Shown here: positions 14,815-59,741 of the stretch, piece by piece | Layout of the letters: the number at the start of each line of letters is the position of its first letter | Numbering within the stretch: position 1 is the first letter of the stretch | Origin: Sulfurirhabdus autotrophica | GTDB lineage: Bacteria; Pseudomonadota; Gammaproteobacteria; Burkholderiales; SMCO01 | Assembly (NCBI RefSeq): GCF_004346685.1 | Contig: NZ_SMCO01000001.1 | Coordinates: 682,001-746,000 of the forward strand | DNA: 64,000 bases | Direction of reading: 5' to 3' | Notes under the pieces: model-generated | Database searches by the model: none | Told to the model about the DNA's origin: nothing | What the model saw: only the letters and a program-made list of their open reading frames with translations | Made by a program: the position numbers and the translations under genes

Positions 14815-15006
14815 ATGAACAACAAACCTTCTCTTGCCGGCTATGTAGTTGAGTTTATTCCTTTTGAACGCAGGCTCGCTCCAAGAAGAACCCCCGTAGA
14901 AAATGCTGTTTCTGAACTGAAAGGTGAGCGCAGAAGAACATTTGGACGACGGGGTGATGACCTTGTTGAATCTAAAGCTACGAAACCTGCAAACCTTTCA
15001 CACTGA
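14815..15006 (+). CDS. Small basic protein, unknown function
   Basis: 63 residues with a very good ribosome-binding site (GGAGGA at 14804-14809, five bases before the ATG). The protein is hydrophilic and Arg-rich; two related segments are seen, PFERRLAPRRTPVE (18-31) and KGERRRTFGRRGDD (41-54). There is no signal peptide, Cys pair or recognised domain. It is transcribed away from the OmpR-type regulator and converges on selD, with a hairpin between. The strong Shine-Dalgarno and isolated position argue for a real gene. Confidence 0.65.
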   Translation: MNNKPSLAGYVVEFIPFERRLAPRRTPVENAVSELKGERRRTFGRRGDDLVESKATKPANLSH

Positions 15007-15031
15007 TTCAGTTTTTCCAAAACATTTAAAG

Positions 15032-15053
15032 TGGCATGGTTCAAACCATGCCA
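15032..15053. terminator. Hairpin between the small gene and selD
   Basis: TGGCATGGTT / AACCATGCCA form a perfect 10-bp stem with only two unpaired bases (four in practice). It lies between two convergent genes; the minus-strand side is followed by CTTTAAATGTTTT. It is probably a shared terminator, though neither side has a clean T-run. Confidence 0.5.
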
Positions 15054-15057
15054 GTGG

Positions 15058-16116
15058 TTAGAATACGCTAATTTCACTCTCACCGAATTTTAGCTTCCCA
15101 ACGATTGTTGCGTATTCAAAACCTTGCTTGTGAAACAATTCCAGCACACTATCAGCCGCTTCTGGCGAACATGAAACCAGTAATCCCCCACTGGTCTGAG
15201 GATCACACAGCACATTTTTTTGCCATTCTGGCATGTTTTCAGGTAAAACCACATTATCACCGTAACTTGCCCAATTTCGGCTAGCTGCACCGGGTGCGTA
15301 TCCTTTTTTTGCAAGCTCTAACGCTACAGGCAGTATAGGCAGTTTAGCAAACTCGATCTCAGCCGATAACCTGGAACCACGACAAATTTCCAGTAAATGT
15401 CCCAACAAAGCAAATCCGGTAACATCTGTCAGGGCATGCACTCCCGGCATATCCACCAAAACGGAGCCAGGTGTATTAAGTTGCGTCGTACTGGCCACCA
15501 TCTGCTGATACCCTTCATCAGATAGTTCACCTTTTTTCAAAGCCGCACTCATGATCCCGATCCCGATTCCTTTCCCGAGTATCAAAACATCGCCAGCTTT
15601 GGCTGCATCATTTCGCTTAACTTTGTCAGGATGCACTATTCCCAACGCAACCAAACCGTAAATCGGTTCAGGTGAGTCTATGGAATGACCTCCTGCGATA
15701 GGAATCCCCACAGAAGCGCAAACCGACTCTCCCCCTGCCAGTATTCCCTGAATGGTTTCTATTGGCAGTTTATCAATGGGCATACCGACAATTGCCAAGG
15801 CAAAAATCGGCTGCGCACCCATAGCGTATATATCCGAAATAGCATTTGTTGCTGCGATTCGACCAAAATCGAATGGATCATCAACAATGGGCATGAAAAA
15901 ATCGGTTGTGGCGACGATAGCCTGATAATCATTCAAGCGATATACTGCTGCATCATCGCTAGATTCTGTCCCTACCAATAAATTGGGGTTTGGAAGTCTC
16001 ACTGGGGATTTAGCAAGAATTTCGCTCAAAATGGCGGGAGCAATCTTACAACCACACCCTCCGCCATGAGAAAACTGTGTCAATTTGACATCCATATTAT
16101 AATCTTTCTGTTCCAT
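15058..16116 (-). CDS. selD: Selenide, water dikinase (selenophosphate synthase)
   Basis: 352 residues. SelD converts selenide and ATP to selenophosphate, the Se donor for selenouridine in tRNA and for selenocysteine. The N-terminal motif SHGGGCGCK carries the active-site Cys and Lys (Cys, not selenocysteine); GTESSDDAAVY and LTDVTGFALLGHL are typical of SelD. Start at 16116 is kept; an internal ATG at 16095 would also fit the family length, and neither has a strong ribosome-binding site. It is divergent from mnmH with a gap of only 23 bases. Confidence 0.95.
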   Translation of the reverse strand: MEQKDYNMDVKLTQFSHGGGCGCKIAPAILSEILAKSPVRLPNPNLLVGTESSDDAAVYRLNDYQAIVATTDFFMPIVDDPFDFGRIAATNAISDIYAMGAQPIFALAIVGMPIDKLPIETIQGILAGGESVCASVGIPIAGGHSIDSPEPIYGLVALGIVHPDKVKRNDAAKAGDVLILGKGIGIGIMSAALKKGELSDEGYQQMVASTTQLNTPGSVLVDMPGVHALTDVTGFALLGHLLEICRGSRLSAEIEFAKLPILPVALELAKKGYAPGAASRNWASYGDNVVLPENMPEWQKNVLCDPQTSGGLLVSCSPEAADSVLELFHKQGFEYATIVGKLKFGESEISVF

Positions 16117-16139
16117 GTATTTTTAAGGCCTGATTTTTG

Positions 16140-17177
16140 ATGCAATCCAATGGTATCACCGTATCACAATTGTCTGAATTTGACGAGATCATTGACGTTC
16201 GCTCTCCTTCAGAGTTCCGAGAGGATCACATTCCAGGTGCGATTAATTTTCCAGTACTGAATGATGAAGAACGCGCACGGGTTGGGACTATCTACAAGCA
16301 GGTCTCTACTTTTGATGCTAAAAAAGTAGGGGCTGCTCTGGTATCCCGCAACATAGCCGACCATATTGACGAACATTTTTGCAATAAGCCTAAAAACTGG
16401 CGTCCACTGATATATTGCTGGCGTGGTGGTAGCCGTAGCGGCGCTATGGTGCATATTTTAAACAAAATCGGCTGGCGCGCAGGGCAATTGGAAGGGGGAT
16501 ACAAAAGTTACCGTCGCAGCGTTCTGGAAGAGTTGGAAATATTACCGGCAAAATTTCAATATCGGGTGGTGTGTGGTTTAACTGGATCCGGCAAAAGTCG
16601 CTTGCTCCAAGCCATTGAAAAACTCGGTGCACAAGTGCTAGATCTGGAAGGCTTGGCTTTGCACCGTGGTTCGGTGTTGGGAAACTGGCCAGAAACAGAT
16701 CAACCTCCACAAAAATTATTTGATAGTTCAGTATGGTGGAAATTACGTCACTTCGACCCGGCACGCCCTGTCTACTTGGAAGCTGAAAGCAAGAAGGTAG
16801 GCAATATACGTGTGCCAGAAGCCCTCATTCAGGCTATGTGGCAAGGGCAGTGTATTCGCCTGGAAGTCAGCCGGGAATTGCGTATTACACTCTTGAAAGA
16901 AGAGTATGCGCATTATCTGGAAAATCCGGAATCATTGAACAAAAAACTGGATTTTTTGACCAGTATTTACGGGCATGATCAGATCGAAAAATGGAAACAG
17001 CTGGTACAAGATGGACATTGGGATAGTCTGGTCATGGCGCTTTTAGAAAGACATTACGATCCCTCTTATAGTCGTTCCATGCTGAAACACTACCCTCATT
17101 TTGATCAGGGAATCCTGCTGAATGTCACTCAAATTGACGAATCGGGCATGCTTGCCTTGGCTCGGCAAGCTTTATAA
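16140..17177 (+). CDS. mnmH: tRNA 2-selenouridine synthase (MnmH/SelU)
   Basis: 345 residues. MnmH replaces sulfur by selenium at the wobble 2-thiouridine of several tRNAs, via a geranylated intermediate, using selenophosphate from SelD. An N-terminal rhodanese domain (7-125) contains Cys93 in IYCWRGGSRSGAM, followed by a P-loop domain (GLTGSGKS, 146-153). The ATG at 16140 is preferred to an in-frame TTG just before it; AAGG lies 11 bases upstream. Divergent from selD, which makes a functional selenium pair. Confidence 0.95.
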   Translation: MQSNGITVSQLSEFDEIIDVRSPSEFREDHIPGAINFPVLNDEERARVGTIYKQVSTFDAKKVGAALVSRNIADHIDEHFCNKPKNWRPLIYCWRGGSRSGAMVHILNKIGWRAGQLEGGYKSYRRSVLEELEILPAKFQYRVVCGLTGSGKSRLLQAIEKLGAQVLDLEGLALHRGSVLGNWPETDQPPQKLFDSSVWWKLRHFDPARPVYLEAESKKVGNIRVPEALIQAMWQGQCIRLEVSRELRITLLKEEYAHYLENPESLNKKLDFLTSIYGHDQIEKWKQLVQDGHWDSLVMALLERHYDPSYSRSMLKHYPHFDQGILLNVTQIDESGMLALARQAL

Positions 17178-17215
17178 ATATACTTGTTCATAAACAATAC
17201 GATAAATTCATTTAC

Positions 17216-17243
17216 TTGACGATCAATTCAAAAGTGCTAGGCT
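17216..17243 (+). promoter_or_regulatory. Putative promoter of first host-attachment gene
   Basis: TTGACG (17216-17221) and TAGGCT (17238-17243) with 16-bp spacing, about 40 bases before the ATG at 17284. The second paralogue has a promoter with the same -35 and spacing. Confidence 0.5.
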
Positions 17244-17283
17244 GAATTCAGGGCATCCCTTTAAATCTTCCAGGCATTAAAGT

Positions 17284-17724
17284 ATGAGCATAACTTGGGT
17301 TCTTGTTGCAAATTCAAGCAACGCAAATTTATACGTCAATAATGGTCCTCACAAAGGGCTGCAACTCACCAAACAATTCACACATCCAGAAAGCAGGGAA
17401 AAAGCTTCTGAACTGGTCTCGGACCGCCCAGGGCACGATCAAGCCCATGGAGGAGGTCATGGATCTTTTACACCGGCAACCTCTCCCAAAGAGCATGAAG
17501 CAGAACAGTTTGCTCAGCAATTGGCACATGAACTTGACCAAGGCCGGGCAACGAATTTATACAGCCGCCTTATTCTGATTGCTTCTCCTCATTTCATCGG
17601 GATATTAAATAACCGGATCGATGAGCATGTTCGTAAACTGGTGAGTGAAACCATTGAAAAAGATTACACGCAAGCAACTGAAAAAGAACTCGCCGAGCAT
17701 CTTAAACCTTACCTGTTTTTATAA
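17284..17724 (+). CDS. Host attachment family protein (PF10116), copy 1
   Basis: 146 residues, matching the family annotated 'protein required for attachment to host cells' (PF10116), which belongs to the bacterial-archaeal eRF1-like fold. Visible features: WVLVANSSNANLY at the N-terminus, HPESREKASELVSDRPGH and GGGHGSFTPATSPKEHE in the middle, and LILIASPHFIGIL. The family name comes from an Agrobacterium screen; a real biochemical role is not established. Soluble, no signal peptide. A paralogue of identical length follows 124 bases downstream. Confidence 0.85.
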   Translation: MSITWVLVANSSNANLYVNNGPHKGLQLTKQFTHPESREKASELVSDRPGHDQAHGGGHGSFTPATSPKEHEAEQFAQQLAHELDQGRATNLYSRLILIASPHFIGILNNRIDEHVRKLVSETIEKDYTQATEKELAEHLKPYLFL

Positions 17725-17771
17725 CTTTTCCAGGTATTCGGATTATTAATCGGGTACCTTTTCCTGGCATC

Positions 17772-17799
17772 TTGACGCAACATTTGAAGAGAGTATTCT
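17772..17799 (+). promoter_or_regulatory. Putative promoter of second host-attachment gene
   Basis: TTGACG (17772-17777) and TATTCT (17794-17799) are separated by 16 bases, 49 bases before the ATG at 17849. The -35 hexamer and spacing are the same as at 17216-17243, so the duplication may have included the promoter. Confidence 0.55.
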
Positions 17800-17848
17800 G
17801 ATTATGTATTTCAGGATGTTTTTATCTACAATTAAATTTGGAGAGATC

Positions 17849-18289
17849 ATGGCTACAACTTGGATATTAATTGCTAATGCCAGTTTCGCACGTCTATACG
17901 CAAACCATGGTGTAAAAAAAGGATTAGAACTCATCAAAGAATTCAGTCACCCGGAAAGCCGCGAAAAGAGCTCCGAACTGGTATCAGACCGTCCTGGACA
18001 TAACCAGGGACAGGGTAATGGACATGGCTCATTTGTGCCCGCTTCTGAACCCAAGCAAGTTGAGGCTGGCAGGTTTGCTCAGGAACTCGCGAAAGAACTG
18101 GAACATGGGCGTGCAAACAATATCTATGACCGGATTATTCTGGTTGCTTCATCTCCATTTATCGGATTACTGAACAGCCGTTTCAGCAACCACGTGCGCG
18201 GATTTATTACCGACAGCATCGAAAAAGATTACACCAAAGTTGCCCAGCAGGAACTGCCTGGCCGTCTGGCGCATTGCATTTACCTTTAA
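17849..18289 (+). CDS. Host attachment family protein (PF10116), copy 2
   Basis: 146 residues, the same length as the gene before it and alignable end to end without gaps: WILIANASFARLY, HPESREKSSELVSDRPGH, GNGHGSFVPASEPK, IILVASSPFIGLL, IEKDYTKVAQQEL. The start ATG at 17849 has GGAGAG three bases upstream; a longer frame from 17804 would add 15 residues without parallel in copy 1. It arose by tandem duplication, with divergence greatest in the C-terminal third. Function unknown. Confidence 0.85.
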   Translation: MATTWILIANASFARLYANHGVKKGLELIKEFSHPESREKSSELVSDRPGHNQGQGNGHGSFVPASEPKQVEAGRFAQELAKELEHGRANNIYDRIILVASSPFIGLLNSRFSNHVRGFITDSIEKDYTKVAQQELPGRLAHCIYL

Positions 18290-18300
18290 CATTGCGACTG

Positions 18301-18327
18301 GCCATTCCCGATTATTGCGGGGATGGC
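18301..18327. terminator. Hairpin between host-attachment copy 2 and thpR
   Basis: GCCATTCCCG / CGGGGATGGC form a 10-bp stem (one G-U on the RNA) with a 7-base loop, located 11 bases after the stop of the plus-strand gene and touching the thpR stop. It probably ends transcription from both convergent genes, though no T-run follows. Confidence 0.5.
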
Positions 18328-18875
18328 TACTTAGCCACTGATTTTAATGGCCACCGCCCGACCACCTCGTAAGTCGACCCCTTTTCGCTCACCACAGATT
18401 GCACCAGCACAAACTCCTTGTTACCCCACAAAATCGGATCAATTTCCGGCATTTTCTCATGGCAATTTGCCTTTCTTAGCAAAGTTGCATGTGGCACATA
18501 AGGGCGCTCATCAAAATGGAATCCGGCTTCTTTAAGCCGAGATGACAAATTTGCTACAAGCTCAGTTAATGCTTCTGGCGTTTCTTCAGGTGTTGCCCAG
18601 GCAACCCGGTTATGCCGCCACCAACCTAGTCGGGTGATATTGAGTTCAAACGCAGATGCCTCAACCAGTGCAGCTTGCGCCTTGAGCTCTTCAATACGAT
18701 CTACTACCACATCTCCAAGGAATACCAGAGTAATGTGAATGGTCTCCGCCCTGGTACGCCGCCCACCGCAGACTGTGAGCAATTTCTTCCCTGCCCGATC
18801 CAGTGCTGACCTCACCTTGGCAGTTGGCCACAATGCAAAAAACATACGTGATGTTTTTTGGCCTTCTTCTGTCAT
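18327..18875 (-). CDS. thpR: RNA 2',3'-cyclic phosphodiesterase (ThpR/LigT)
   Basis: 182 residues of the 2H phosphoesterase family, with both HxTx motifs: HITL in [12 protein letters not shown] and HATL in [11 protein letters not shown]. These enzymes open 2',3'-cyclic phosphates to 2'-phosphates on RNA. The start is ATG 18875 ([17 protein letters not shown]), which overlaps the ispF stop as ATGA (18872-18875); a longer frame upstream would lie inside ispF and encode an Arg-rich stretch unlike the family. Co-transcribed with ispF. Confidence 0.92.
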
Positions 18876-19345
18876 ACTTTCCGAATCAAGCACACTGCTT
18901 CTGCGGCGATACCTTCGCCTCGCCCCGTAAAACCCAGTTTTTCCGTAGTAGTTGCTTTTACATTGACACAATCTGCTGTCACACCGATATCCTCAGCAAT
19001 ATTGAGCACCATTTGCGCAATATGCGGTGCCATTTTAGGGGCCTGAGCAATAATGGTAGTGTCTACATTACCCACCACATAGCCCTTTTCACGAATGATA
19101 CGTGCCACTTCTTGCAATAATTTTCTACTATCTATTCCCTTGAACCGGGCATCTGTATCGGGAAAATGTTTGCCGATATCACCCAAACCCGCTGCACCCA
19201 GCAGCCCATCGCAAATTGCATGTAACAGTACATCTGCATCGGAATGCCCAGCCAAACCTAAATGATAAGGAATATTGACACCACCAATAATCAGTTTGCG
19301 GTTTTCTGCAAACGCGTGGACATCAAAACCGTGGCCTATTTTCAT
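18872..19345 (-). CDS. ispF: 2-C-methyl-D-erythritol 2,4-cyclodiphosphate synthase
   Basis: 157 residues, normal length. IspF acts in the MEP pathway of isoprenoid synthesis. Metal and substrate residues are seen in GHGFDVHAF (DxH), [17 protein letters not shown] and the C-terminal [19 protein letters not shown]. It lies upstream of thpR with a 4-bp overlap and 123 bases after ispD. A separate ispD gene, not a fused ispDF, is used here. Confidence 0.96.
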
Positions 19346-19468
19346 TGTTTTCCTTTTAATAAAGATTTTTCAGTGTTTGCTAAGGGGCGAGGGAACCTGC
19401 TGCTGACAAATATTTAAGTTTAACTTACCCAAAAAACGCCAGACAAAACGTAAAAATTACCAATACAA

Positions 19469-20164
19469 TTAATCCACCAAATTTTCCAGAATTAACGCTG
19501 CCAATTGCAAATCCTGCGGATAGGTGACTTTTAAATTTCGGCTATCGCAAGCGACTAACTTTGGATGAAATCCGAGGTGCTCCACTGCGCGAGCTTCATC
19601 CGTAGGAGTATCCGTCCCTAACGCCTGTAAAGCTTTCACCAACAAGCCATATCGGAACATTTGCGGTGTTTGCGCCTGCCAGAGCCCTTCCCGTGGCTCT
19701 GTTTGTTTGACTCTACCCTGCGCGTCTGCACGTTTCAATGTATCCGCTACAGGTACAGCAAGCAGCCCGCCTGTTTCATCCTCTCCAATTACTCGAATCA
19801 AATTGGCAAGATGCTCATTGGTCAGACAGGGGCGTGCGGCATCGTGCACCAGCACCCAGTCGTCAGCCTGAACAGTTTCCTGAATTTTCTGCAATCCATT
19901 CAATACGCTTTCCGCACGGGTATCTCCCCCGCAAAACAGAGGGTTAAGCTTAGATTTAAAAGCACTCCAGTCATATTCGTTCCACATAGTGTCTTCAGGG
20001 GACAGTACCACATAGACCTGTTTGATAACGTGGGCACTGCACAAGCGCTTGATCGCGTAATAAATCATGGGTTTTCCCAAAAGCGATAAATATTGTTTGG
20101 GAACTTCGTTACCCATTCTGCTGCCAAAACCAGCAGCTGGAATAAGCGCAATATAGTTAGACAT
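19469..20164 (-). CDS. ispD: 2-C-methyl-D-erythritol 4-phosphate cytidylyltransferase
   Basis: 231 residues. IspD makes CDP-ME from MEP and CTP. N-terminal nucleotide loop [19 protein letters not shown], the HDAARP motif and the substrate-binding [13 protein letters not shown] are all present. First gene of the ispD, ispF-thpR group on the minus strand; the gap to the divergent amrB is about 150 bases. Confidence 0.96.
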
Positions 20165-20303
20165 GTTTATCCTAAAGACAGCTTTCAGGTTTATTTTTCT
20201 TTAACAAAGGTAATTATCGTGTCTTGTGAGGAAATACCGCAAGCTGCACTTGATATTTGGCAACTTACCCTCATCTACTTTTTAAGCATAACCTGTTATT
20301 TTT

Positions 20304-20310
20304 AAGGAGG
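20304..20310 (+). promoter_or_regulatory. Consensus ribosome-binding site of amrB
   Basis: AAGGAGG five bases before the ATG at 20316 is a perfect Shine-Dalgarno sequence, one of the strongest in the window, and sets the amrB start without doubt. Confidence 0.85.
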
Positions 20311-20315
20311 TTTAC

Positions 20316-21131
20316 ATGCATCAAGTTCGTCCAGCCGCTGTAGCAGGCGCCTTCTACCAGAGCAACAAACAGGCATTGGAAAATGATGTCAATGCTATGT
20401 TGGCGACTGCCAAAGAAAACAATAGTGAAACAAGTATTGCACCAAAAGCAATTATTGTCCCCCATGCTGGCTACATCTATTCAGGACCAATTGCCGCAGC
20501 TGCCTACGCCAGATTAGCTGCTGTTCGCGCTTTGATCAAACGCGTTGTATTGCTCGGGCCAGTCCATCGTGTGCCAGTTCGCGGGCTCGCTCTACCTGGG
20601 GTAGCCGCATTTGCCACCCCCTTAGGGGAAATTCAGATCGATCAGCCTGCTGTTGCGGCTATAGAGAAGCTGCGTCAAGTGGTTGTAAGCTCAGCTGCCC
20701 ATGCCATGGAACATTCTTTGGAAGTACAACTGCCTTTCCTGCAATCGGTTCTGGATGATTTCAAACTAGTGCCATTAGCCGTAGGGGATGCGACATCGGC
20801 AGAAGTCGCCGAGGTACTGGATACTTTATGGGGAGGCCCGGAAACACTGATTGTGATCAGTTCTGACCTTTCCCATTTCTTGCCTTATCAGGCAGCACAA
20901 GCTGTTGATGCAGAAACGGTACAACATATTCTGAATCTGCACGGCACACTGAATCATGAGCAAGCCTGTGGCGGCACACCTGTCAACGGATTATTGCTTG
21001 CAGCCAAACAACACCACCTGCAGCCACAATTGCTGGACCTGCGCAATTCAGGCGACACCGCAGGCGATAAAAGCCGCGTTGTAGGTTATGCCTCATTCGC
21101 TTTCATGGAGGAAACAAAAGATGTCCATTAA
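20316..21131 (+). CDS. amrB: AmmeMemoRadiSam system protein B (MEMO family)
   Basis: 271 residues, a MEMO1-like protein. MEMO folds resemble non-haem-iron LigB dioxygenases. The positions equal to the metal-site residues of human MEMO1 (two His and one Cys) appear conserved: His50 in VVPHAGYIYSG, His84 in LGPVHRVPVRG and Cys218 in ACGGTPVNG; His187 in SSDLSHF is also typical. First gene of a tight three-gene operon (11-bp overlap with amrA). The role of the bacterial system is, to my knowledge, unestablished. Confidence 0.94.
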   Translation: MHQVRPAAVAGAFYQSNKQALENDVNAMLATAKENNSETSIAPKAIIVPHAGYIYSGPIAAAAYARLAAVRALIKRVVLLGPVHRVPVRGLALPGVAAFATPLGEIQIDQPAVAAIEKLRQVVVSSAAHAMEHSLEVQLPFLQSVLDDFKLVPLAVGDATSAEVAEVLDTLWGGPETLIVISSDLSHFLPYQAAQAVDAETVQHILNLHGTLNHEQACGGTPVNGLLLAAKQHHLQPQLLDLRNSGDTAGDKSRVVGYASFAFMEETKDVH

Positions 21132-57336: not shown

Positions 57337-59208
57337 TCAGGAGTTGGCAATCTCTTCAATTTTCTGGCCTGCCAGCGCTTTTTTGACGCTTTGATCCATA
57401 CGCCGTCCAGCAAAGTCAGTTGTAACATGATTAAGCGCCTCAGCAGCCTGCTTAATAGCCTGATGATTATCACCGTCAAGTACTGCACGTAGTTTATCCA
57501 AAGCTTCCAATATGGTAGTGCGCTCTTCTTCATTCAGCAGAGTATCACCATCTTCAGCCAAAGCATTTGCAGTTGCTTCCACCAGTGAACGCCCTTCTAC
57601 CTGCTGTTCGCGCAATGCACGGGAATGCACATCATCTTTTGCATACACATAGGAATCCTTGAGCATACGCGTAATTTCATCATCAGTCAGACCGTAGGAC
57701 GGTTTCACGGTAATGGCAGATTCTACGCCAGAACTTTGTTCCTTGGCAGAAACGCTTAGCAAACCATCTGCATCCACCTGAAAAGTCACCCGGATTTTTG
57801 CAGAACCAGCCACCATAGGAGGGATGCCGCGTAATTCAAACTTGGCCAAGGACCGGCAATCACTTACCAACTCTCGCTCACCCTGCACCACATGAAAACT
57901 CATTGCGGTCTGACCATCTTTATAGGTCGTAAATTCCTGGGCACGCGCCGTAGGAATTGTGGAGTTTCGAGGAATCACCTTTTCCGCTAATCCGCCCATG
58001 GTTTCAAGGCCCAAAGATAAGGGAATCACATCCAGCAGAAGCCAATCATCATCAGCACGATTACCTGCCAGCACATTCGCTTGAATAGCTGCACCCAAAG
58101 CAACCACTTTATCCGGGTCCAGATTATTAAGTGGTTCCTGCCTGAAAAATTCGGCAACAGCTTGCTGAATTCGTGGCATACGCGTTGAACCGCCCACCAT
58201 CACTACACCCTTGATATCATCGACGGACAGGTCTGCATCTCTCAGCGCCTTACGGGTCGGAATCAAGGTTTTATTCACCAGACTCTGCGTCATTTCCGTA
58301 AAATGATCCGTAGTCAACACCAAATCAATAGTTTCACCTGTCGACAACACCGCTGTTATCCGTGTTTCAGAATAGTCCGTCAGACCTTCCTTGGCTTCGC
58401 GTGCTTTGGTCAACAACAGTCGCGTATCGTGCGCATTCAAGGCAGACAGTTTGGCTTCTGCCAGAATCCAGCAATAGATGCGATGATCAAAATCATCGCC
58501 ACCCAGTGCAGAATCGCCATTTGTAGCCAACACTTCAAACACGCCACGGGAAAGCTTTAAAATGGAGATATCAAAGGTACCGCCCCCCAGATCAAATACG
58601 GCGTACACACCTTCAGCCGAATTATCCAGGCCATAGGCAACAGCTGCGGCAGTCGGCTCATTCAATAAGCGAAGTACATTCAAACCCGCCAGCCTGGCAG
58701 CATCTTTCGTTGCCTGACGTTGGGCATCATCAAAATAGGCAGGCACTGTAATCACGGCACCAACCAACTCCCCACCTAGCGCTTTTTCAGCACGTTCGCG
58801 CATTACTTTCAGTATCTCGGCAGACACTTCTACTGGACTTTTCACGCCAGCAATCGTCTTGAGTTGCACCATACCTGGCGCATCTACAAAACCGTAAGGC
58901 ATATCACTCACATCCGGCAGATCTTTTAATCCGCGCCCCATGAAACGCTTCGCAGAGACGATTGTATTATGTGGATCTTCGCTCTGCTTGGCTTGTGCGG
59001 GGCAACCGACGTCCACATGACCATCCGCAAAATACCGTACTACGGAAGGTAATAGTGGACGACCTTTCTCATCGTTGATAACGACACTGATACCATTCCG
59101 AACAGTCGCAACCAGCGAGTTGGTCGTGCCAAGGTCTATCCCGATCGCCAGCCGATGCTGGTGTGGGGCCGTGCTCATGCCAGGTTCAGCTATTTGCAAT
59201 AATGCCAT
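57337..59208 (-). CDS. hscA: Chaperone HscA (Hsp70 family)
   Basis: 623 residues. Actin-like ATPase domain starts [32 protein letters not shown] and [11 protein letters not shown] follow, then the substrate-binding domain. It drives cluster transfer from IscU, recognising the LPPVK motif that is present in IscU here. Start overlaps the hscB stop (TAATG). An internal ATG ten codons later is an alternative start. Confidence 0.97.
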
Positions 59209-59741
59209 TATGAATCCATTGTTTCGTATGCGTCATTGATCTCAGAAATCAGTTTTTCCAGAAAGCGCAGCTTACGCACATTTTGCGCTGCACCCGGGTA
59301 ATCTGCCTCTACATCCAGCTGTTTCTCAAGTACGCCATGCAGAGATTTTATTTCCGCTTTTAAACTACTTTCGGTTTGTTCCAGAGCATTTATATCATGC
59401 GCCATTTTGGCGTCCATAACCGCTTCACGCAACTCCATCTGCTCCATTAGAAACGCAGCAGGCATAGCCGTATTGGTTTCTTCCTGAGTGTCTACCTGAT
59501 GGAGATTAAGTAAATAACGTGCACGATTAATAGGTTTTTTCAGGGTCTGGTACGCTTCATTGGTCAGCGTTGCCCATTGCATGGATAGCCGGCGTTCAGC
59601 ATCGCCCAAATGGGCAAATTTATCCGGATGTACTTGACTCTGTATATCTCGATAAATTTGATCCAACTGGTTGAGATCAAGCTTGAATGCTGGCTGGAAG
59701 CCAAAAAGCTCAAAAAAGTTTTTATTGAAATCGTACTTCAT
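59208..59741 (-). CDS. hscB: Co-chaperone HscB (J-domain)
   Basis: 177 residues. N-terminal J-domain with the HPD motif in [50 protein letters not shown], then a three-helix IscU-binding domain. Delivers IscU to HscA. One-base overlap with hscA. Confidence 0.96.

Follow-up and report, generated by a model that had tools for sequence, protein, structure and literature searches.

According to the accessible parts of the respective reports, Balon serves ribosome hibernation in stationary phase and during cold shock, with its middle domain acting at the peptidyl-transferase centre (PMC10901736), and most baeRF families, three of which are reduced to the core domain, have been proposed to act on or block the ribosome non-catalytically, with baeRF10 named as possibly catalytic (PMC6514570). 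The census of Balon was taken after homologues of under 300 amino acids had been removed (PMC10901736). As to promoters of stationary phase, the available text on E. coli gives KCTAYRCTTAA as the sigma-S consensus (PMC5650638).

We analysed a stretch of 64,000 nt from Sulfurirhabdus autotrophica (NZ_SMCO01000001.1, positions 682,001 to 746,000, forward strand; hereafter the window) that carries two neighbouring genes, HA1 and HA2. The gene order is selD (–), mnmH (+), HA1 (+), HA2 (+), thpR (–), ispF (–) and ispD (–), then Memo, AMMECR1 and radical-SAM genes (+), in which the names ispF, ispD, Memo, AMMECR1 and radical-SAM reflect our own reading of the proteins. The features concerned are the following:

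16137–17177, plus strand: mnmH, tRNA 2-selenouridine synthase (NCBIfam, 504.6 bits), the conserved upstream neighbour
17216–17243, plus strand: P1 of HA1, with TTGACG at 17216–17221, an N16 spacer ending in TGC, TAGGCT at 17238–17243, and then GAATT
17284–17724, plus strand: HA1, 146 residues, PF10116/baeRF12, stand-alone and eRF1-middle-domain-like (Pfam and predicted model)
17772–17799, plus strand: candidate P2 of HA2, TTGACG-N16-TATTCT, lacking the TGC extension and AAA
17840–17845, plus strand: putative ribosome-binding site of HA2, GGAGAG, by appearance
17849–18289, plus strand: HA2, 146 residues, PF10116/baeRF12 paralogue (Pfam, and clade with f34 downstream copies and f47)
18327–18971, minus strand: thpR, RNA 2',3'-cyclic phosphodiesterase (TIGR02258, 116.9 bits), the conserved convergent neighbour

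Profile searches bore out the initial annotation in that two 146-residue 'host attachment' proteins are encoded in a row at this place. Both exceed the curated Pfam cut-offs over the full domain, i.e., those of PF10116 (HA1: 3e-43, 148.1 bits; HA2: 3.8e-39, 134.9 bits; cut-off 26.7) and of PF18856 baeRF_family12 (HA1: 2.9e-33, 115.8 bits; HA2: 1.3e-26, 94.2 bits; cut-off 27.7). With 146 residues, and on the predicted model, each amounts to a stand-alone RNase H-fold core devoid of N and C domains, and they are the only PF10116 matches in their own genome. NCBIfam returned a family for neither protein, Rfam gave no match in 15000–20500 of the window (E up to 1), and no tandem-repeat array was found in the window. 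The HA2 start listed for the open reading frame is 17804; the homologous start is 17849, preceded by GGAGAG. HA1 and HA2 are identical at 84 of 146 residues and 276 of 441 nucleotides, agree at only 41% of third codon positions, and have a synonymous distance that is not computable, i.e., saturated. Most likely, they are old paralogues that have diverged from each other, and each represents a bacterial, stand-alone version of the eRF1-type middle domain (baeRF12/PF10116). This kind of protein is already known, and the new parts are a conserved promoter and an old, shared pair.

The eRF1-like fold suggested by the initial annotation, which had asked for a structure prediction, was upheld when that prediction was run. 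An AlphaFold2 model (four sequences) reached a pLDDT of 76 and a pTM of 0.70, with residues 37–65 below 50, and its best matches in the PDB were Balon, aRF1/eRF1 and Pelota. Specifically, Foldseek ranked Balon (Msmeg1130) first and second (E of 3.0e-6 and 6.4e-6), followed by aRF1, eRF1, more Balon and Pelota. VIA-align gave Z 13.1 for Balon (rmsd 3.7, 123 aligned), Z 12.6 for eRF1 (5lzv; rmsd 4.0, 125 aligned) and Z 11.9 for Pelota (3obw; rmsd 3.2, 114 aligned), and the first chains of other proteins (mitoribosomal) appeared at 8.6. When the PDB was searched by sequence, nothing was returned for a single protein (E up to 1) or for a profile of 64 sequences (E up to 10). The structural matches to Balon, eRF1 and Pelota are confined to their middle domain, and the predicted model aligns end to end with eRF1 residues 143–277. 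On this model, the eRF1-like role is strengthened to a reading in which the proteins would resemble the middle domain of Balon.

The disordered loop of the model falls where the GGQ loop of eRF1 lies, which we take to be at about residues 183–185. A glycine-rich loop at this place in a predicted eRF1 middle-domain fold would suit catalytic rescue, i.e., a miniature eRF1 whose single domain releases peptides from stalled ribosomes. The loops of 46 of 64 members, among them HA1 and HA2, contain a glutamine at one place or another, which points the same way, as does baeRF10, the family named as possibly catalytic in the accessible part of PMC6514570, which matched 32 of the 64 sampled homologues at E <= 0.01 (PF10116 and baeRF12 matched all 64). 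However, the GGQ of catalytic aeRF1 release factors is absent from HA1 and HA2, whose loops read GGGHG and GNGHG, respectively, and it occurs in only 8 of 158 homologues, with a GGQ-like loop in 4 of 64. Moreover, the loop glutamine occupies no conserved column (15 of 64 in the best one), and loop length ranges from 19 to 43 among the 64 members. Catalytic rescue is therefore unlikely.

The initial annotation had also placed a similar promoter before each gene, which stood as far as the -35 hexamer and the N16 spacing are concerned, both being exact in the two sites. TTGACG-N16-TANNCT, a pattern chosen after the sites had been seen, occurs twice in the 64 kb, both times here, with 0.05 expected, and a generic consensus scan reported the HA2 site and missed the HA1 site. 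Among 64 close homologues (profile score >=185, our own cut; identical ones merged, both window copies included), TTGACn-N16-TAnnnT was found within 250 nt upstream in 31 (29 of 62 without HA1 and HA2; 31 of 158 homologues overall), whereas 60 dinucleotide shuffles gave 0.17 on average and never more than 2. Other spacings in the close homologues were nearly absent (none with N12–N15, N17, N19 or N20, two with N18 and one with N21, the wider spacings being counted without shuffle controls). The N16 sites, whose -35 begins 65 to 227 nt before the start codon, are distributed over f1, f15, f33, f34, f43, f45, f47, f50 and two named metagenome-assembled genomes.

Since these 31 sites were selected by TTGACN17TANNNT, those positions are fixed by choice, and the flanking TG, C, AAA and the leading C were free to vary. 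At the free positions, a C precedes TTGAC in 81%, T and G precede the -10 in 90% and 97% with an adjoining C in 74%, and AAA runs from the second base after the -10 in 81, 90 and 77%. The HA1 site has all of these except the last A. When scored with a matrix made from the sites of other families, i.e., with its own genome left out, the HA1 site obtained 27.3 bits and ranked first among 127,934 window positions (next 9.2). The HA2 site, without TGC or AAA, obtained 8.1 bits with the same matrix and ranked fourth, behind two other window sites of 9.2 bits. These scores put the HA1 promoter far beyond chance and leave the HA2 promoter suggestive only. Judged by sequence, the HA1 N16 element is a conserved promoter of the family, and P2 might be a weak promoter of HA2's own, so that the similarity of the two promoters held in hexamer and spacing but not in strength or in the flanking bases.

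The stretch between HA1 and HA2 yielded no terminator-like site, so that P1 may serve both genes and one transcript could cover both. In f34, three of the four upstream-type copies (L049, L050 and L110, not L115) retain TGCTAGTCTTAA with a poor -35, and no N16-type site was found before the downstream copies. The promoter begins 199–227 nt before the start codon in L109, L038, L113 and L118 (f34 single-type) and in L015 and L089 (f47), which predicts a leader of about 170–190 nt for these genes. At gathering score, Rfam contained no family matching the loci of four relatives (L052, L122, L129 and L089).

The genome of S. autotrophica carries rpoS (431.5 bits; cut-off 378.7), as do 162 of 399 genomes of the order at the same cut-off. 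Bases two and three after the -10 are AA in 18 of 23 N16 sites from genomes with rpoS vs. 0 of 3 from genomes without it, where the latter three represent one clade and five sites of unknown rpoS status are excluded. Three rpoS-less genomes nevertheless retain TTGAC-N16-TGCTAGNCT, so that RpoS is not needed for the conservation of the element, and the rows of f37, f48 and f35, which are rpoS-bearing families, show no N16 site before HA. Within the S. autotrophica genome, the strict pattern TTGACN15GCTANNYTNAA has one exact match (HA1), and its 9 matches with up to one mismatch equal the 9 of the reversed control, so that an RpoS regulon is not seen in this genome. The -10 region agrees in part with the sigma-S consensus, and control of the HA1 promoter by RpoS is likely but unproven.

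The chromosomal position of the gene is itself conserved. The gene thpR lies convergently downstream in 56 of the 64 close homologues and mnmH upstream on the same strand in 30, both being lower bounds since many loci reach only 1.5 kb per side; with the same short flanks, 26 of the 64 have both neighbours and 4 have neither. These counts make HA the resident gene of a conserved slot, which in the window holds two HA genes. Both neighbours were also found in 2 of 14 intermediate homologues, and neither mnmH nor thpR in any of 80 distant homologues within the same flanks. Directly 5' of the HA pair, selD and mnmH (selenium-to-tRNA pathway) lie back to back at 15058–17177.

Such company might suggest an RNA- or tRNA-linked role that is tied to mnmH and thpR and involves no docking on the ribosome. 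However, thpR is not co-transcribed with HA, being convergent, the two neighbours are missing from the fetched flanks of the distant homologues, and the promoter accompanies HA even at loci for which no nearby mnmH was found (f47 and part of f15 and f43), which together render this role improbable. In other orders, 58 loci with two ORFs each (116 in all) revealed no dominant neighbour. Of the 123 Pfam families matched by these ORFs, 25 were listed, the commonest being cNMP-binding (5), PEP-utilising (4) and PCMT (4), and the raiA/HPF families were absent from those 25. The recurrent neighbours at L131–L188 (Crp-type regulators/cNMP-binding, PEP-utilising enzymes and PCMT) resemble genes listed near bll4645 in the accessible part of a Bradyrhizobium low-oxygen table.

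In samples that overlap in part, the numbers of genomes with a PF10116 match were 104 of 399 for the order, 179 of 369 for the class and 124 of 398 for the phylum. Among the matches listed, adjacent intact pairs other than that of the window occur in G195 and G225 (both f34) and in G558 (another order of the class). The two copies of G558 are not fresh duplicates, since they are only 52% alike and the upstream one shares 95.6% identity with the only copy in a related genome. Within f34, PF10116 is present in 8 of 18 genomes; in one of them, G400, it occurs twice, on separate contigs. In G314, a truncated and stop-bearing remnant (L051, G314:C6:411322-411498) lies upstream of an intact copy, and it looks as if the upstream pair member was lost in this species. 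Elsewhere, a PF10116 gene split into two frames (L056, G091:C5:42861-43272), in a genome with another intact copy, is probably a frameshifted pseudogene.

The adjacency of HA1 and HA2 and their shared -35 hexamer and spacing had led the initial annotation to read the pair as a duplication of a whole transcription unit. This did not hold up as a recent event in this lineage. A sister relation of HA1 and HA2 was rejected by the AU test in a 68-row tree (p of 0.0031; 96 rows minus 28 distant or long-branched ones dropped by hand) and in a 64-row tree (p of 0.0175). In both trees, HA2 belongs to one clade (99/98 support) with two f47 genes and three f34 copies, two of which are downstream pair members and the third of which lies beside the remnant; HA2 and the f34 copies alone received 97/71 and 96/56. 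HA1 has a long branch and its position differs among trees. It grouped with the f34 upstream copies in the 64-row tree, the best sampled with four such copies (87/81), and with L072, a single-copy gene of f33, in the 96-row (97/88) and 68-row (92/71) trees. In the 68-row tree, neither a grouping of HA1 with two f34 upstream copies (p of 0.47) nor a single clade uniting the seven tandem-type copies of f1 and f34 (p of 0.134) was rejected; separate acquisition of the two copies is one possible history among others.

Moreover, the alignment of the regions upstream of HA1 and HA2 is no better than that of shuffled sequences, 222 of 1000 of which scored as well, third positions are as divergent as given above, and tandem pairs exist in a second family, f34. 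The similar promoters are no sign of unit duplication either, because the HA1 promoter also precedes single-copy homologues, i.e., is the family's own, and the HA2 site lacks TGC and AAA. A recent duplication is thus rejected under the models used, and we regard it as highly improbable.

A comparison of f34 genomes with a pair or remnant vs. those with a single mnmH-linked copy showed a higher identity to the window in the former for HA2 (79–81% vs. 63–70%), thpR (50–56% vs. 42–44%), Memo (68–73% vs. 64–65%) and AMMECR1 (69–71% vs. about 61%), but not for HA1 (55–60% vs. 58–64%). A control gene distant from the pair, at 57340–59232 (HscA-like by our reading), did not differ in this way, with 76, 76 and 75% in G225, G314 and G195 vs. 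75 and 74% in G399 and G285; the comparison with G402, G400 and G403 yielded 70%, fragments or a paralogue. Set against this one control gene, the identities hint that the tandem block may have moved as a unit between lineages.

Taken together, we propose that HA is a stand-alone middle domain that would cover the peptidyl-transferase region of the ribosome non-catalytically in stationary phase or stress, a proposal to which we give roughly even chances and in which ribosome binding and RpoS control are inferred. The -10 element would let RpoS, and probably sigma-70 too, turn on HA1 at growth stop or stress, perhaps along with HA2 by read-through from P1. HA would then dock on the large ribosomal subunit in the manner of the Balon and eRF1 middle domains. 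Its loop of about residues 37–65, rich in glycine and without GGQ, would cover the peptidyl-transferase region and leave the peptide uncut, whereby ribosomes might be kept silent or protected. With its own weak promoter, HA2 may permit differently timed expression. The parts of this proposal that were checked are the family, the predicted fold, the HA1 promoter, the synteny and the non-sister status of the copies. Several points count against the proposal. HA has neither the N nor the C domain, which serve Balon for the decoding centre and EF-Tu, many members have a glutamine in the loop, P2 is weak, and raiA/HPF families were absent from the neighbour families listed. As to RpoS, rpoS-less genomes keep the element, f37, f48 and f35 show no N16 sites, and the own genome reveals no regulon. 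A search of the open-licence literature yielded no study of ribosome binding by PF10116 proteins or of the N16 promoter.

In Bradyrhizobium at 0.5% oxygen, two 'host attachment' proteins, equated with PF10116 by name only, were upregulated (protein log2 of 2.9 and 3.2; transcripts 15.0- and 21.8-fold), and one of the genes concerned, bll4645, is numbered next to bll4644, encoding a universal stress protein (PMC6515984, accessible part). The gene bll4645 is among the FixK2-box genes, with a 10.6-fold drop without FixK2 (PMC9104804, accessible part), and the second 'host attachment' gene is listed as a FixK2 target, RpoS not being named in the portions available.

A role at the cell surface or in host attachment, as the family name says and as the link of the domain to plant-pathogen proteins would have it (PMC8638967, accessible part), is barely credible, since the 146 residues cover only the eRF1-type domain of the model, with the first strand from residue 4, and a Leptospira homologue is marked 'CY' in the same source, which we read as cytoplasmic; the predicted fold thereby backs the doubt that the initial annotation had cast on this name.

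In a wider and more tentative form, which we hold to be possible rather than probable, PF10116 proteins in general would be 'mini-Balons', i.e., single domains that plug the peptidyl-transferase centre without catalysis and stand under RpoS-type stationary-phase promoter control, forming a widespread hibernation family with separately tuned tandem copies. Such a family would have been overlooked because of its misleading name and because the Balon census left out proteins of under 300 amino acids. Between about a quarter and a half of the sampled genomes of order, class and phylum carry PF10116 under a misleading virulence name, and evidence for a ribosome-type domain whose promoter is conserved and probably of the stress type would allow this common family to be annotated correctly. 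It also offers a cheap and direct way to ask whether relatives of Balon with a single domain put ribosomes into dormancy.

Compared with the sigma-S promoters of E. coli, the HA element likewise has G and C before TA, T at the last -10 position and AA thereafter, but differs in its strongly conserved TTGAC and rigid N16, in a mid -10 that is mostly G or C instead of Y-R, and in its persistence in a clade without rpoS. As members of baeRF family 12/PF10116 Host_attach, HA1 and HA2 pass the curated cut-offs, consist of the RNase H-fold core alone and lack GGQ, so that the proteins themselves have no distinguishing feature; the tandem pair and the conserved N16 promoter, on the other hand, are not described in the accessible part of PMC6514570. 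With the middle domain of aeRF1/eRF1 and Pelota they share the same predicted fold (Z up to 12.6 for eRF1 and 11.9 for Pelota), yet they lack the flanking domains and, unlike eRF1, GGQ. Balon (PDB 8rd8, 8v9j and others) has three domains, including those for the decoding centre and EF-Tu, whereas HA, at 146 amino acids, corresponds to the middle domain only. Over that middle domain, however, Balon is the best structural match, and HA is, on the predicted model, likewise an aeRF1-type middle domain in which GGQ is missing, and for which expression under stress would be expected as well.
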